Source of the DNA: Ulota crispa | Lineage: Eukaryota; Streptophyta; Bryopsida; Orthotrichales; Orthotrichaceae | Assembly: GCA_963920765.1 (NCBI GenBank) | Contig: OY987247.1 | Location: 10,450,471-10,514,470, forward strand | Length of the DNA: 64,000 bases | Direction: 5' to 3' | In this document: positions 2,785 to 49,719 of the stretch, one piece after another | Position numbering within the stretch: position 1 is the first letter of the stretch | Layout of the letters: each line of letters opens with the position of its first letter | Notes under the pieces: generated by a model | Database searches by the model: none | Told to the model about the DNA's origin: nothing | Seen by the model: the letters and a program-made list of their open reading frames with translations, nothing else | Translations under genes and position numbers: made by a program

Positions 2785-3748
2785 ATGGCGGTGGGCATTG
2801 GAAGGGGGTTAACCTCGCCGCTTCTGGCGTTGAACTTCTGCATGTATGTCATCACGGCCGCCATCGCAGGGTGGGCTTTGAACAAGAACATCGACTCCTC
2901 TGCAGGCGCAGGTGGCTATGTCGGTACGTGCAGCTTGAAGCTCGATCCACCACTTTTTTATACATTTGTGTTTCTTTCTTTTGTGAAACGTGTTGACTGT
3001 TGAATGGCATTGTCTCTCATGCTGTCGAGTGTCGGGTTGGCTTTGTAGGTAACGCGGCAACATTTTATTTCCTGCCGCTGGTGCTGATTGCGTCCGTGGT
3101 AGGATTGGCGTCCACCTTGGCTGGTGTTCACCACTTGAGAGTGTGGCGCACCGAAACCCTTGCTGCTGCCGCTTCAGCTGCGATCGTTGCGTGGACGCTC
3201 ACTCTTCTCGCCTTCGGGTACGTTAAATCCGAGCACAAAATCTTTATGACATTGCGACTTTCTTGCTCGCTAAATCAGCCAATCAATCAGGGCGTTAATT
3301 TTAGATATGTGAAATTTTGTGATTGTGCGCAGTGTCGCTTGCAAGGAGATTCACATTGGAGGCCTACGCTCGAGGAAGCTGGTGAGTAATCCAACAATCA
3401 CCAAAATCGTGTCAAGAAAGTATGACTAAACGAATTTGAATGTACACAGCACTGATGTTTGTGTCTGCAAACGATTAGATGAAGCAAATGTGATCTGCAA
3501 ACTTGTAGATCCGTGTTAAGTTCTTTCCTGATTGTGTGAACCACTGGCCGACATTCTTGCAGAAAGTGGTGGAGTCGTTCGTCATCATCTTGGCCTTCTT
3601 CGAGCTCCTTTACTTGCTGACTCTCCATGCCGGCGTCTTAGGCAGCGACTATGGTCCTTACAACCACGCAACCGCTGGAGGTGCCAACATTAGTCTGGTG
3701 CAAGCGGAGAAGCACCACCACGGCACGCCCGCTGCTGCAGCTATCTAA
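2785..3748 (+). CDS. PM19L: AWPM-19-like (PM19-like) plasma-membrane protein, four exons
   Basis: The exons are 2785-2923, 3049-3217, 3333-3381 and 3563-3748, with phases 1, 2 and 0. They give a protein of about 180 residues, normal for the family. The start ATG at 2785 gives MAVGIGRGLTSPLLALNF, the usual AWPM-19 opening. Four hydrophobic segments follow: NFCMYVITAAIAGWALN, the TFYFLPLVLIASVVGLAS stretch, AAAASAAIVAWTLTLLAFG and ESFVIILAFFELLYLLTLHAG. The family signatures GVHHLRVWR, ACKEIHIGG and GVLGSDYGP lie between and after them. The tail is His/Ala-rich. AWPM-19 proteins are plasma-membrane proteins induced by ABA, cold and desiccation, and a rice member (OsPM1) has been reported to import ABA. 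That role is family knowledge, not shown here. The gene converges on the 2H phosphoesterase gene 284 bp downstream. Confidence 0.93.
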
Positions 3749-4032: not shown

Positions 4033-4587
4033 TCAATGCTTAGGTTGTACATTCGAGTGCACGTTTTGCTCGCCCTTGAGGAATGGAAATGTGTCGAGCG
4101 CTTCCCATGGTCCGCCGCGGTAAGCCCAGAGCTGCAACCCCGTGGCTGTGGCGTCGAACGGGTGGAACTGCTCCGAGAGCTCTTGATGCAACGCACGAGC
4201 TACGGAGGCGTCCACTTTGTTCTGCACCGTGATGTGAGGGTTGAGCGGTTGCCGGTCCTGCGGGGTGAGCTCTCCATGCCACTGCTTCTGCAATCGCTTG
4301 TGCAGAACAGAGAGTCGATGATTCTCCATCGTGTACGCCACCCCGCGCCCTAGGAAGCGCACACCAGTGACGGCGATCGGCAACGGTGCTTCGTCACTTG
4401 CTAACTTCGCCACTTGCGACCTCACAGCGTCGTACTTGTCGCCTGGGAGGTGGTGGAACAGAGTGAGGTGAGCGGAGAGAAAGCTGCGCTCTACCGGGAA
4501 GTGTTGTTGCCGCAGTGCGTCAAAGAAGCGCTGCGATTTGGAGTCGAGGATGAGCGTGAGCACGATCGGAGCCGCCGTGGTGGCCAT
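4033..4587 (-). CDS. 2H phosphoesterase (2'-5' RNA ligase-like family), intronless
   Basis: A single 184-residue open frame begins at ATG 4587 (MATTAAPIVLTLILD). It carries the two H-x-T-x motifs that define the 2H superfamily: HLTLFHHLPG near residue 40 and HITVQN near residue 118. Each histidine/threonine pair contributes to an active site that cleaves 2',3'-cyclic or 2',5'-linked nucleotides. The pattern LDSKSQRFFDALRQQHFP before the first motif, and the overall length, look like the bacterial family annotated '2'-5' RNA ligase family protein'. The classic plant cyclic phosphodiesterase is different. No signal or transit peptide is obvious. The lack of introns among multi-exon neighbours fits transfer from bacteria, but that is inference. 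The substrate is unknown. Confidence 0.85.
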   Translation of the reverse strand: MATTAAPIVLTLILDSKSQRFFDALRQQHFPVERSFLSAHLTLFHHLPGDKYDAVRSQVAKLASDEAPLPIAVTGVRFLGRGVAYTMENHRLSVLHKRLQKQWHGELTPQDRQPLNPHITVQNKVDASVARALHQELSEQFHPFDATATGLQLWAYRGGPWEALDTFPFLKGEQNVHSNVQPKH

Positions 4588-5671
4588 AGAACTAAGCTTA
4601 GAACCGGCAAGCGACGAGTACGATGCTCATTCACGAACTGACTTCCAAAGCAACCTGCGTCAGGATGCAGGACTTTCGAAATGAGGTTTGAAGATCTTGT
4701 CAAGAAATCATTCATAGCATTGGAAATCGAAATGTTCTTAGTTGCTTTCTCGCTCAGCGTCAATTTGAACAATCTCTCAACTTTTCTCAGTTTCATCTAA
4801 GAAGATCACAGCTCTAGAAGGAAGAGACAAAAACGGAAAACAAGTAAAGAACGACACAGTCCAAAATATCGAATCTAGAATATTCAGCCTTTCGCCATAA
4901 CTCTGAAAAATTTGCAATCGTCGACCTTTCGAAGCGGTGCACAGAAGGCAGAGAGTGACGTGATTAGGAAACAGGCGCGTACCTCGTAATCAAAACGGTA
5001 TCTAATCCAACGCCATAATCCATTTCATTCTTCAGTTTCTTCACAAAATCTCTACACCTGTAACAACTACGACACTACAGCTTTTGAAAGTGTTTCTCTA
5101 AGAGCTGCCTTGAGTTTTTTCGCAAGAGTGTGAGATAGAGATTCGACAGTTGTAGAGCGGACAGAAGAGATAACAAACAACTCACAACTGCCCAGAAAGG
5201 GAAGAGAGAGAAGCAACGTAAATGAAAAGGCGAAAGGGATGGATACTAATGCAAAGTCGTAGTTGTCGCTCGTTACGAGTGTCGCCGAGCTCTCAGATTG
5301 ACAAGCACACTGTATGCTCTTGTCCACACAGCTGAAAGGATACAATGCAATGGATTCTTCTCTCCAAATGCTGTTTGTCGAAGGGATGCTATCGGCGGCA
5401 CTTTTTCGTCTTCACATAATCCGATTGCAGCTCTAAAGAACTCATACAACAATTGTGAGAGGCTGCTTTCACGGCAAATTTAGTGTATTAGTACTCGTTC
5501 TGTCAGTAAAGTTCATATGAACTGGATATGATAGTTATGCTACAGGGCAACTATTTCTCGGTGTAAATATTTGATACAATAGTTGAGAGAAAGGCTTGGA
5601 GGATGGAGGCATTTGTTTGCTCGTCGTCATACTGTGAAGATTAAGTTACTCTTTGTTGCTACTTTCCACCA
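4588..5671. other. intergenic region upstream of the 2H gene and downstream of the RLP
   Basis: No gene or repeat is recognised here. A 92-codon frame on minus (5067-5345) has no known domain. The stretch probably holds the 2H promoter and leader and the 3' end of the LRR gene. Confidence 0.4.
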
Positions 5672-8016
5672 TTACGTGTGGCCTTTCCAGGCTGACAGGT
5701 GCACAGCATGCCGCGCTCGAGCACGTGGCGCAAAGATAGACTTTCGGAGGGAAGAGCGCATGCCAATCACCACGAGAACTCCGCCGAAGCCGATGAACAG
5801 GCCGACGCAGAGCCCTGTGGTTGACATGTACGCTTTCGTCCAAGAAATCTTGCGGCATTGATTCAAAAGTGGCAGTCCGCACAGGCCTTCATTTCCAGGC
5901 AAGAAATTCTCCGCTTCCCAGTGGCTGCCAAATCCGTTCGCCTTCGGAATCTCGCCAGAGAGTCTGTTGCCTCCTAAGAACAACTCCTGGAGATTGCTCA
6001 TCTGTGCCAGCATTCTTGGAACACGACCGCTGAGCTCGTTCGCGGACAAGTCCAGCGACTCGAGATTCGGAAAGCTTGGAGTAACATCAGGAATTTGCCC
6101 GCGGAAAGAGTTGCGAGAGAGATTGAGGTCGCGCAAGTATTCCAGTTTGAGAATATCGTCAGGTATTCTTCCTGTTAACTTGTTAGCTGCCAGGTTGAGT
6201 GTCGCAGTTCCCGAGAGTCCGTTTCCGGAGAAAATATGAACCTTACCTTTCCAACTAAGTTGAAGGTTTACTGTAAATGCGCTCAACTTCAGATAAACGC
6301 GGTCGAACACTTTGGTCTGACTCTCAGCATCAAGTACCGTCATAATGATATTGTCAATGAAGCCTCTCATATTGCTCAAGTCGCTTGAAATCTCGCTGGA
6401 CAGGTTGTTGATAGAAAGATCGAGCACGCTCACGTTCTTAAGGTTCCATATCCAATCTGGAATCGCGCCTTCGATTAGATTTGCCTCCAAATTGAGCACT
6501 CGCAGCTTCTGAAGCACCGGCTTGGAAGACACAGGCAATGCTCCCGTTAGTTTGTTCCCGCTGATGTCCAGTACCGTGAGATTCTCGCAGTTGATGATAG
6601 CTTCAGGAAATGTTCCGGTGAAGTCATTGTTCGCTGCTGTCAGCACTTCAAGCGATCGGAAATATTCAAAGTTCAGATTATCAAGCCGTCCGGACATTCG
6701 ATTGATCGATAACAAAAGCCGAGTCAAGTTAAGACAATTATGAAGCTCTCTCGGGAGTTCGCCGTCGATTTGGTTGTCGCTGAGGTGAAGATTACGCAGG
6801 TGAGAGCATTGGCTGAGGCTCGCAGGTATGGCTCCCGTGAGATTGTTCCCTTCTAGCCACATCCTTTCTAACAACCGAAGCTCCCTAACTCCGCTGGAAT
6901 GGTACCGCTGAGCTGATTGCTCTGTAGCAACAATGTCGTTAGGGTTTCACATTTGGAGAGCGAAGCCGGGATGTTGCCTGTGAGGTTATTGTCGTTCAGA
7001 ATAAGCACTTGAATCGATTTCACCGTGCAAAGCGGAGGGATTTCACCGCTGATGTTTGTGTTGGTGATGACGATACTTTCAAGTCCATAACTACTGCCGA
7101 AATCTGCAGGTATGGATCCGTTGATGCCTTTGTTGTAATCCAACAGAATCGCTCCCAAGCTTGGGCACCGTGCAAGAGACGCCGGAATAGATCCTACAAA
7201 GCTGTTGTTACTCAAATGGAGAAGCCGAAATGTCTGCAAATCTCCAAATTCCTCAGGTATTCCGCCAGTCAGACTATCGTTCCAGAATTGCAGGCTTTCC
7301 AACTTCGGGCACTTGCCGAACTCCGGCGACAGAGTTCCTGTGAGTTTATTGTTCCCAAACACCACTTTCTTCAAACCAGTACAGTTCACAGTAAGTGCTC
7401 GAGGGATCTCTCCTGAGAAGCTATTGTGCTCTCCCTCGTAATTCTCAAGGAGATTCCACTGCTGACCTAAGTATGAAGGCAGAGTTCCATTGAACAGGTT
7501 GAAAGAGAGATACAGCTTGTGCATCTTGCTGCAATTTCCAAGCATTCCGATACCTCCAGAGATTTTATTGAAGCGAAGATAAACCTCACTGAGCTCTTGC
7601 AACTGCCCGAATGATTCTGGCAAATAACCGGTCATTTCATTGTCCTCAAAATCGAACATGGATAATCGACTGCAGTTGCCTAACGACCTTTGTATCTCCC
7701 CCACGAGCTGATTACTTCGGCCAACGAGTTCTCTTAGATTGACACAGTTTCCAAGGCTCTCCGGGAGAGTGCCGTTGATATGCTCCTTGAAATTTAGGGT
7801 TTCAAGTTGACGAAGGCTACCCAGCGTGGCAGGAAGGGCTCCACTGAATTCGTAATGCGTCAGAATTAGGGTTGTCAGATTCCGGCAGTCTCCGATCTCA
7901 GGAGGAATGAAGCCTGTCAATGCGTTATCGTAAAGCTCCAGATGCTGCAGAGCTGAGAGCTTCCCAAACGCAGCTGGAATACTGCCTTGTAAGTTCGTGC
8001 TATGGATTGGAGCGGT
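5672..8016 (-). pseudogene. LRR receptor-like protein, frameshifted and lacking its 5' end
   Basis: Roughly two dozen plant extracellular LRRs (consensus LxxLxLxxNxLxGxIPxxLxxC) run from about 7999 down to 5890. Then come GNEGLCGLPLLNQC, a single transmembrane segment (GLCVGLFIGFGGVLVVIGM) and a short basic tail ending at 5672. There is no kinase domain, so the type is receptor-like protein (RLP), typically a surface immune or developmental receptor. The reading frame breaks once near 6868-6880: LGSFGC then stop lies in one frame, and RLLERMWLEGNN continues in the next, which fits loss of one base. The start is also missing. The frame hits a TGA at 8017-8019 with no signal peptide or LRR N-terminal cap. 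A possible AG acceptor at 8001-8000 leaves room for upstream exons, but none was found. The 1-kb palindrome begins 45 bp further on. Confidence 0.85.
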
Positions 8017-8061
8017 TCATAACACTTTCACTCTTCTTGTAGTTGGAAATTGTGATTAAGT

Positions 8062-9113
8062 GTTTAGAATAGAAGAAAAGGCTTGGTATGGCCCCAAAGC
8101 AAATTAAGAAAAATGAAACTCAAGTTTTAGGGAGAATTTAGGGTTTCAAGGTTCCTAAATAAAATCTCCTAAGGTTTATTGGGGTTTTAGAAATTTTAGG
8201 GTTCAGTGTGGTTCTCTAATTATAAAATCCTCAATGGGTTAGGTCTTAGAGTTATCATTCAAAGAGTGCAAGTGAGATTGACACCATGGAGGCTTTGAAC
8301 CCTAACACTTTTATTTAAAATAGAAGCGACTCAAAGGTGCAAAATCAGTGAAGTGCAAAAAGATGAAAAAAGCAAAACACAAAGGGTGCACAATCACATA
8401 CCAACTAGGTGACCCCTAGTCAAGTTCAAAGATAGAAGGCTTTACTAATCCAAACTAGTTTTGCCCTTAAAATATGGCTCATCAATGGATATAGTGCAAT
8501 ATAAGGAAGAAGAAATAGGTGTCTATGTCCTAGCTTAAGTAACTCAAGGGTCAATATAGCCATGACAAACAATTCAATTAATGAGTTAGACATGTAAACA
8601 ATATTGTTTGTCATGGCTATCCTTACCCTTGAGTTACTTAAGCTAGGACATACACTTATTTCTCCCTCCATGTATTGCGCTTTATGTATTGATGAATCCT
8701 ATTTTAAGGGCAAAAACTAGTTTGGATTAGTAAAGCCTTCTATCTTTGAGCTTGACAAGGTGTCAACTAGTTAGTATGTGACTCTTCACCCTTTGGGTTT
8801 TGCTTTTATCATCTTTTTACATTTCGCTAAGTTTGCACCTTTGAGTCACTTCTACTTTAAGTAAAAGTGTTAGGGTTAAAAGTCTCCATTGTGTCATTCT
8901 TACTTGCACTCTCTGAACCCTAACTCTGAACCATAACCCATTGGAGATTTTATATTCAAGGAACCACCTTGAACCCTAAAATTCCTAAAATCCCAATGAA
9001 CCTTAGGTGATTTTGTTTAGGAATCTTGAAACCCTACACTCTCCCTAAATCCTATGTTTTATTTATTTTAATATGCTTCAAAGCCATTACAAGCTTTTTC
9101 TTCTATTCTAAAC
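8062..9113. repeat. giant imperfect palindrome / foldback element (~510-bp arms)
   Basis: The left arm (8062-8573) is the reverse complement of the right arm (8603-9113), with a 29-nt loop. The outer ends read TTTAGAATAGAAGAAAA and TTTTCTTCTATTCTAAA. The inner ends read GCCATGACAAACAAT and ATTGTTTGTCATGGC. Matches continue along the whole length, for example AACTCAAGGG/CCCTTGAGTT and ACTAATCCAAACTAGTTTTG on the left with its complement near 8715-8735. By eye the inner parts are nearly 90 percent identical and the outer parts less. Short AACCCTAA telomere-like motifs lie in both arms. No clear target-site duplication flanks it. No coding capacity was seen. Confidence 0.9.
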
Positions 9114-10570
9114 CCTAAACCGTAAACTCATTCTCCATTCTCCACCTCCCATTAAAAGGGAGTCGCACCACTCAACTTTCATTCTTGCAAAAGGTATCAC
9201 TATCCATACTATTTTGAATTGGAATAGCAGTCTGGTATTGGGATGAAAGTATTGAGTGACAATGTTGGTAATAGAATGAATATACTGAGGTGCATTACTC
9301 AATTACCTTGTCGACGTATAGCTGGCCTTCAATTTTTCAAACCAGTTCTTTGAATCAAGCGACTAGGAGTGACTATTGTCCAAGAATTGTACCTTTTACC
9401 TAAACTTACTTTCATTCTATTATTTCCACTCAATGCTTGAATAATTGGCCACTTTGTAGTGACAAACCAGTGAAATATTGCAATTGTTTGCCTTGATCAA
9501 GAACCAAATTTTTAAAGGTCGACATATTGATCTTGAATTTCTCCAAATGAGACTAAATGAGATGTCAATCTTACCATTTCTTGATGCTCTTGAAGAATTT
9601 GTGATATTCTATGTTAATAAGCTTGGAGCTAGTGTGTAATCCCACATTGTACACTAGAAAATTTTAGGCTTGATTATTGCTGAAAATTTAAGTTGTGTGT
9701 GTTTGAAAAGTCCAACATTGTCAAGGAAGTGTTGCAACTCCGTTTGTTTTTTTGAGTTCCAAATAAGCTCTCATTTATTTGGCTTTAATTGCGTTATTAG
9801 GAATAGTTCCTTGCAGTTAATTTATGGAATAGGACTATTTCAAAATACAATCAACTCATGAAAGTATGGCCTGTGATCAAATATATTGTTAGCATAACTA
9901 GAGCCACAAAAAGTTGTAAGCACGTTGTATTTGGATGTTGTACTGTAGGGAATTTTGAAATTAATCAAATCATGCAGAATTTGCAAGATGCAACAACTGG
10001 ACAAACAATATACTTTAGTAGGAGACTTATTTAACTTTGTTGTTGTTTCAAATGCACAACAATTAAGGAAAACATAGATGGATGAAGATGCAAATTGATG
10101 AAACTAACAAACAGATTCTTATCTACTCTCCATCCAAAAAATGGATATCCCGGCACTTGGAGATTAAATCTTACCACTTGAAGTCTCAATATTTTGTTAT
10201 TTTGACATACTTTGAGTGCTTGACAAGTATGTGGCAAGACCAGATTCTTTTGTTTTGAAAGATATAATGAATTTCAATTTAAAGAAGATCGTCAAGGTTT
10301 GAGAACAAGTTGCTAGGCAGTATTTCTTTAGTGCTAATTTTTAGACATGAATAAAAAAAAGGCTTGTGCAAATTGGCTTAGTCTGATTGTATTATCCAAG
10401 TAAATAATCCACATGGAATGTAATTGGATCCTTTAGTATGTTGGTTAGCAATAATCTTAGGATAGAGATGTTACCAAAACACTTCTAAAATTTTCAACTT
10501 CGAACCACACAAACAATCTCACGAGACTCCATATATACAAATCATAATGGAGCAGATGAAGCGTCAACCC
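9114..10570. other. AT-rich intergenic DNA
   Basis: I see no gene or structured repeat here. Small open frames look random. Confidence 0.4.
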
Positions 10571-10574
10571 TTAA

Positions 10575-10990
10575 CCCTTTAACGAATGTGGTCCATTCTG
10601 GGGTGGGCAATCCTTTATATTTTCATTTGGGAACATTTTAGGGTTATTGAATATAAATGTCTATCACAAATTTGACCGTATAGATGGAAATATCTTGCAG
10701 CCTTTAGTGTTATGCATCATAAATTATGCTCACTCTTTAGTTGTTATGGCCATCTTTTTGCATTTATTGGTGTATTTTTAGTCGGTACTCTTTTAGTTTT
10801 TCAACCCTCTAACCACATGCCACCTCAGATTGGCCTAGTTATTGTCCTAAACTCTTCACTTTCCACTCTTCACTTTCCAATTCCCAAGACCCGTCTCCTT
10901 TGCCATGTCATCAAATTTCTTGACATGCTCTTTCTACAAACTAAAAAGAGTCAAAATCGACTAGGAACTGGTCAACTAGTCCTTAATGGA
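10575..10990. mobile_element. piggyBac-like MITE (TTAA-flanked)
   Basis: The element is flanked by TTAA at 10571-10574 and 10991-10994. It starts CCCTTTAACGAATGTGG. Its inside is clearly homologous to the element at 20067-20458, sharing the GGGTGGGCAATCCTTT and ATGCCACCTCAGATTGGC blocks. It has no transposase and is non-autonomous. The 108-codon open frame inside it is not a gene. Confidence 0.75.
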
Positions 10991-11702
10991 TTAAAGGACA
11001 AAGCTACTATAATATATAGTATGTACACTGTTGTATAACTGGCATATGCTACCAACAAAATGTTTTAATTTGAGATCTTGACTACCTCACTAGAATAGCA
11101 TTGATCTATATTCTAACATCTTTGTTGATTGCAAATGTAGTAAAGGTGTAGATGCATTGCAAATACAAGAAAAATACCCTATATTGTACTAGTCACAAAG
11201 GGCTGCTTTGGGTTAATTTGTCTTTCTTGAGTTACTTTCTTTTACAGATATTTTAAGAGGTCCAAACCCTAACCTTCCAAATAGGGAGATCAACTCTTAA
11301 ATAAAGATTTTAACAATTGGGTAAATGAACACCTCATAGTAATTTTTATTTTCATGACAATTTGCATTTGAAGATGCTCTACAACGTGTCCTTCCGCCAA
11401 GTTGATGATTCAGTCACCTGATTTAATTTAAGACAATTTTTGCTAGAATCTTACCAAATTACATGGTGCATTATCACTTAAATGACATTGGTGATAAAAT
11501 TACCAAATTCTTTTCAATTAGTCCCTAGGTTTGTCTTGTGTACAGGCGTATATGAATGAACGTGTACACACGATGGATGAGTTTATCCAATTTTGTTCTT
11601 TACCTGCATGCATTATAGGATACGTGTCGCTTGACCATTGAACGAACGATCATAAAAAATAAAAATGAAAAACCCTTAGTCCATGAAATGCATTTGTTGG
11701 TA

Positions 11703-49545: not shown

Positions 49546-49647
49546 ACACGTGGACGACATCTCTTTTATACACACGGTACATAAACACGTTTCTAAAAAC
49601 TACCTCATCCCTATGATGGATATAATTTGGTAAGAATTAATTATAGG

Positions 49648-49719
49648 GGGGCATCGGGAGAATCGAACTCCCGACCTCTTGCACCCTAAGCAAGAATCAT
49701 ACCACTAGACCAGATGCCC
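49648..49719 (-). tRNA. trnP-AGG: tRNA-Pro (anticodon AGG)
   Basis: The 72-nt gene reads from GGGCATC at 49719 to GATGCCC plus a C discriminator at 49648. All arms pair: acceptor GGGCATC/GATGCCC, anticodon stem CTTGC/GCAAG around loop TTAGGGT (AGG), and T-arm CGGGAGTTCGATTCTCCCG. The A box (TGGTCTAGTGGTA) and B box are intact and there is no intron. TATAAAG lies about 35 nt upstream. No T4 terminator follows directly; the first T5 run is about 50 nt downstream (plus-strand AAAAA near 49597). Confidence 0.97.

Follow-up and report, generated by a model that had tools for sequence, protein, structure and literature searches.

Penelope-like elements (PLEs), described as retroelements of common ancestry with telomerase, are found in rotifers as head-to-head palindromes, which have been read as the result of self-priming (both according to PMC3846280). 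The way in which they are copied is still unsettled (PMC11167929). Among the closest described cases are the Penelope elements with inverted pLTRs in the rotifer Adineta vaga. According to PMC3846280, these have head-to-head inverted 3' repeats with palindromes at the junctions, 5' truncations, partial tandems and some insertions without target duplication, all as in the plant family described here, but they also encode an endonuclease of the GIY-YIG type, and target duplications of 8–10 bp flank several of them, neither of which was seen in our case. Another group, the endonuclease-deficient PLEs, primes at telomeres or at breaks (PMC3846280), and telomeric PLE giants attach via C-rich repeats at the 3' end of their RNA (PMC12477314). 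Going by these two sources, our family resembles the endonuclease-deficient telomere-associated PLEs in that no endonuclease was found after the reverse transcriptase (RT), and possibly in the telomere-like bases at some 3' ends, whereas its copies are mostly inside chromosomes, as single decayed insertions. Endonuclease-less elements, EN(-)PLEs, are also tabulated for Selaginella, Pinus taeda and Picea abies in the section of PMC9033089 that was seen; these come from land plants and lack the endonuclease as here, a likeness of description and not of sequence, and palindromes are not mentioned for them in that section. No description of PLE palindromes in plants was found in the literature searched, the key PLE works lying beyond the reach of that search. 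A different kind of locus, the plant MIR or hairpin siRNA gene, likewise has a long, imperfectly paired hairpin as a potential substrate for dicing, but in our case no host target was found and the arms derive from the tail of a retroelement. Against this background the locus is most likely a palindrome of PLE tails in a plant, endonuclease-less plant PLEs as such being already known.

The palindrome lies in a stretch of 64,000 nucleotides from Ulota crispa (the window, C6:10450471-10514470) and was followed through the genome, 275 Mb in 157 contigs. It is probably, in our judgement with good confidence, the fossil of an insertion by a PLE that probably had no endonuclease, consisting of two 5'-truncated 3' ends of roughly 540 nt placed head to head. 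The preliminary description had reported a near-perfect palindrome beside a broken LRR receptor gene. The inverted repeat, 1064 nt long with a loop of 29 nt, is real and does adjoin such a gene (Table 1), but "near-perfect" is too strong, the arms being 85% identical (439 matches over 515 aligned positions, 4 gaps). This identity is fairly even along the arm (82, 84, 87 and 88% by quarters), and one ungapped block of the inverted repeat is by itself 417 nt at 84%. The left arm has its 3' end at 8056 and covers family positions 1–518, its element sense being set by the orientation of the RT frame at another copy, L043. In the loop, 26 of the 29 nt extend the family sequence of the right arm (about positions 519–544), and the 3 nt adjoining the left arm are without any match. 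It had also been said that the window holds no further copy; the two arms are indeed the only matches in it among those listed, no 18-mer is common to the palindrome and the remaining window, and no exact 21-mer is either, LRR gene included.

Table 1. Features of the palindrome and of the gene on its left, in positions of the window.
Feature	Position	Strand	Description and basis
LRR receptor-like gene fragment	5672..8052	-	read in two overlapping frames, stops at the element; Pfam LRR_1/LRR_8
Left arm	8056..8573	-	5'-truncated copy of the non-coding 3' end of the element; inverted repeat and family homology
Hammerhead-like segment, left arm	8438..8495	-	suggestive only
Loop	8574..8602	+	alignment with other copies; loop letters
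Right arm	8603..9119	+	the other copy of that 3' end, with its terminus at 9119
Hammerhead-like segment, right arm	8679..8737	+	suggestive only; no Rfam hammerhead match
Telomere-like end of right arm	9102..9128	+	ends ...CTAAACCCTAAACCGTAAAC; telomere-match score 17

Both arms are members of a dispersed repeat family. A genome-wide search with one arm had been proposed in the preliminary description, and when it was made with both arms it gave at least 21 and at least 27 matches, the window's own two arms included, with relatives in at least 17 other places. The other matches were grouped into 17 places, all of which were fetched (L035–L051), so that together with the window 18 loci were compared. 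Identity to the window arms is about 66–79% in the longer matches and up to 88% in short ones. Exact 21-mers in common with the palindrome number 13 in L046 and 1–3 in five further relatives, and eleven have none. Many copies carry a single arm and run on into an RT-like open reading frame (ORF), and the homology extends beyond the arm at L039, L041, L043, L044 and L045, and for some 2 kb where L039 is compared with L043; the window copy itself is without RT. Intact relatives sought in viral contigs and phages were not found there. Some relatives also have long flanks in common, as in the case of L035 and L040 and that of L036 (254-2195) and L044 (268-2191), where the similarity is about 80% over 1.9 kb; each pair seems to have been duplicated within a larger segment and not to reflect two insertions. 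An ORF in the flank of L036 matches DDE_Tnp_4 (E 1.4e-5).

The copy at L043 has an open frame of 407 codons on the opposite strand, which makes arm position 1 the 3' end of the element. Stops interrupt most of the related frames, which are found at L039, L041, L045, L047 and C11:27700. When L043 is compared with L041, the mismatches in this frame follow a coding pattern, with 14 of 157 at second, 31 of 156 at first and 50 of 157 at third codon positions, whereas in the arm of the same two copies they show none (28/171, 31/171 and 24/169 by phase); the labelling of phases as codon positions was assigned by our own arithmetic. The RT-like frame stops after the same residues in all five copies compared, and in the four that have the arm it begins 55–60 nt beyond the stop. 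The arm thus makes up almost all of the 3' untranslated region, and the comparison of these sequences indicates that the palindrome arm is the non-coding 3' end, roughly 540 nt, of a longer element.

The assignment of this element to the PLEs is the weakest link of the explanation. At L043 the frame contains, in order, the motifs DKN, KVHK..GRPICS, DVESLYPSIP, TAMDSNFA, YIYDAFGI and LDVHIF, and the last five of the six recur in similar form at L055, an order that we take to be the RT pattern of Penelope-like elements. It is probable on this reading that the family element is a Penelope-like retroelement, a distant cousin of telomerase. The RT of the family had no significant match in Pfam, NCBIfam or PDB, where two chance PDB hits at E 0.9 and, best in NCBIfam, a group II RT at E 0.17 stayed below significance, and hhalign comparison of the ORF with maturases of the same genome, on very shallow alignments, was negative. 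The pattern of a GIY-YIG endonuclease is absent from seven stretches in three frames each, all of these copies being decayed, and the loose C..C..H..H matches in the same stretches were taken as chance level; the element is probably endonuclease-less. A partial tandem is found at L043/L052, where a second 3' end (162 nt at 92%) lies about 3.5 kb from the 3' end of L043 and directly precedes the apparent start of the ORF. Terminal repeats thus occur in both orientations, direct at L043/L052 and inverted at the window, L037, L038 and L039. Since a partial tandem of this kind is described for PLEs (PMC11167929; PMC3846280), the structural habits of the family agree with those of PLEs.

In L041 and L055 one RT motif reads YIDN, at the site where, as we presume, the catalytic motif would be YIDD, and a change from CpG to CpA could have produced it. 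The group II maturase-like ORFs of this genome include two (L064, C156:47666-48841, and L066, C156:89418-90278) on contig C156, which looks like an organelle genome. A further match, L065 (C1:40864676-40865536), equals one of these in score and in length and is perhaps its nuclear copy.

The outer ends of the copies may bear on priming. A TTTAGGG-like stretch is found at 6 of 18 outer ends, against a chance expectation of 0.09, or 0.37 if conditioned on a TTTAGAA-like site (2.05% of 146 sites), although these ends are related by descent. The 18 do not include L045, L046, L050 and L051, where the 3' end is not reached. The right end in the window scores highest of all (17) and its left end is not distinct (6); the other side of the count, 12 of 18 ends without a clear telomere-like stretch, the window's left among them, speaks against our explanation. 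TTTAGGG arrays do exist in this genome, with 1126 forward and 547 reverse matches to five units and none to a reversed control. Among the places listed the copies are mostly megabases inside contigs, which differs from the telomere-bound rule stated in PMC3846280. Only one copy lies close to the end of a contig, the more distant RT relative L055 (C11:27382-28661), with about 27 kb between it and the beginning of C11; the first bases there are N, and no telomere unit was found in 1200 bases.

At the insertion site, the LRR homology had been described as stopping within about 65 bp of the palindrome. That it stops near the element stands, but the distance does not, for by tblastn the homology reaches 8040 at E 7e-27 and 8052 at E 1.4e-4, about 4 nt away. 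Right of 9119 no LRR match was found within the window. No target duplication was found at the window, L037, L038 or L039, where the longest common strings, of 3–5 nt, do not exceed those of random sequence. When the genome was searched at the DNA level for a paralogue of the LRR stretch, only the query itself came up, and neither the lost half nor an empty site was found. An endonuclease-free insertion at a break, with a deletion, is a possible account that fits this picture. Just right of the element, at 10571-10994 of the window, lies a high-copy repeat of about 420 nt with 758 candidates at first look; among 40 copies scored the identity is 85–88%.

The head-to-head arrangement, with the 3' ends of the element outermost, is found at 4 of the 18 loci: the window, L037, L038 and L039. 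At L038 the arms are unequal and there is an insertion, and inverted ends of about 112 nt surround a longer body; at L039 the pair is unequal too, about 2.5 kb against about 88–89 nt, again with inverted ends flanking a longer body. In a tree of 18 arm rows (L046 and L050 were excluded from 20) the two window arms are sisters with support 90/84, which is below the star given by the program, at a path length of 0.18, and the L037 arms are sisters with support 100/100. The L038 arms are unpaired and fall with L042 without resolution, L038_L being slightly nearer to it. As the arms are each other's nearest kin at two of three palindromes, these palindromes were formed separately, each at its own locus, and were not spread as palindromes; gene conversion, instead of local origin, is an alternative source of such likeness within a locus.

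The turns of the palindromes suggest how this could have happened. At L037 the turn is a CTTAAG-TAACC-CTTAAG hairpin, which could let the end of a cDNA act as its own primer and so points to self-priming, and L038 has its turn at that CTTAAG too. The turn in the window is to position 518, within the self-complementary AAACAATATTGTTT, but it has three unmatched bases and no clean priming match, which counts against the explanation that we prefer. The RNA of the element would have ended in CCCTAAA-like bases and would have been copied from a DNA 3' end exposed at a break or at a telomere-like terminus. While still being extended, the cDNA may then have turned back on itself close to a short self-complementary site and used itself as template as far as the point where it had begun. 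Joining of this product to the opposite side of the break would have cost some sequence and severed the LRR gene. The insert has since decayed, probably under DNA methylation. Fold-back of the cDNA would yield the head-to-head order directly.

The same order could also arise without any fold-back, if both ends of a break primed cDNA from the 3' end of the RNA and the two truncated cDNAs were joined head to head. Such two-ended priming, which we hold to be possible but distinctly the less probable course, accounts for the outermost 3' ends at the four loci and for the absence of target duplication, and the unequal pairs at L038 and L039 come easily to it; for the L039 pair, either two-ended priming or a jump between templates in fact gives a better account than fold-back. 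It has more difficulty with the truncation points, which are 518 and about 544 in the window and about 488 and 484 at L037: with two independent cDNAs, near-equal lengths would be a coincidence or need a hot spot, and the L037 turn falls exactly at the CTTAAG hairpin. A broader version of our preferred fold-back reading is only tentatively put forward, namely that a land-plant family of endonuclease-less PLEs inserted at internal chromosome breaks, and not at telomeres, via telomere-like RNA ends, with repeated fold-back of its cDNA at self-complementary sites, and patched breaks, here the one within an LRR gene, with hairpins that maybe fed the silencing of the family.

The remaining explanations fare much worse. 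An ordinary foldback transposon had been named as an alternative in the preliminary description, and a foldback or terminal-inverted-repeat DNA transposon with the arms as its ends would indeed give dispersed copies, and at L038 and L039 inverted ends around a longer body. It is highly improbable all the same, given that target duplications are absent at all four loci checked, that many copies have a single arm continuing into an RT-like ORF, and that the arms group by locus at two of three palindromes and not as left against right. It is likewise highly improbable that the inverted copy was made by fold-back break repair of the host, or by the assembly, with the element uninvolved: there are short self-complementary sites near the turns, but the inverted match ends at the 3' end of the element and does not extend into the flanks, and the arrangement recurs at other loci. 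As for the assembly artefact, also raised earlier, its arms would be nearly identical, so the 15% divergence is too high for it. It is very unlikely, too, that the palindrome works as an siRNA locus or a young miRNA locus in the regulation of host genes. The hairpin is long on either strand, but searches with both arms gave no host target, only family members among the matches listed, the remaining window shares no 18-mer with it, and the Rfam miRNA matches are below gathering, the best of them scoring the same on either strand.

It had been proposed that a transcript through the palindrome would form a long hairpin, and this holds if the hairpin is taken as imperfect: the predicted fold is a single hairpin of -654.1 kcal/mol on the plus and -647.2 on the minus strand, values that, at more than 1000 nt, are without a shuffle control. 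A young miRNA or siRNA gene made from a duplicated gene finds no support in the arms, which match only dispersed family members among the matches listed and are the non-coding 3' end of the family's element. Among Rfam miRNA families the best candidate was MIR6135 (58.7 bits on either strand, against a gathering threshold of 99), and no family reached its own threshold, a result to be expected of any long hairpin. If transcribed, the palindrome could by its predicted fold form dsRNA, mainly matching itself. Within its 1064 nt there are only 3 CpG, an observed/expected ratio of 0.09 compared with 0.91 in the LRR gene and 0.55 in the window, and over 20 arm rows the ratio is 0 to 0.34. It was possible to polarise 62 of the 81 differences between the window arms, giving 25 changes of C>T or G>A and 12 of the reverse kind. 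Such CpG loss and C>T bias is what long methylation leaves, and it concerns the whole family, not the palindrome alone. A scan for bacterial promoters and terminators, with models not suited to a plant, gave no excess over shuffles. A long plant hairpin beside a gene, it should be cautioned, need not be a nascent microRNA gene, while several plant palindromes that were formed separately and differ in age provide natural turn points for weighing fold-back against two-ended priming at breaks.

The arms also contain a segment that resembles a hammerhead ribozyme, and going by base-pairing patterns such a ribozyme is suggestive only. The Rfam HH9 model has a weak match at L043, with 18.5 bits where gathering requires 52 and an E of 2.5 over 17 kb or 0.019 over 131 bases, and none at L036 or at the palindrome in the window. 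With a home-made template, a score of at least 18 was reached by 12 of 17 rows in sense, by none of 17 in antisense and by 17 of 600 random stretches, 3 of the 20 rows having been excluded as too short. The base pairs hold in 84.8% of cells, which 89 of 500 shuffles equalled, the covariation score was equalled in 52 of 500, and RNAalifold predicted no pair in the segment.

Elsewhere in the window there is a tRNA-Pro (AGG) at 49646-49719 on the minus strand. To the left of the LRR gene fragment lie an ORF similar to 2'-5' RNA ligase (4033-4626, minus strand, E 3.9e-24) and a fragment of AWPM-19, a plant-specific family (2997-3389, plus strand, E 7.6e-23).
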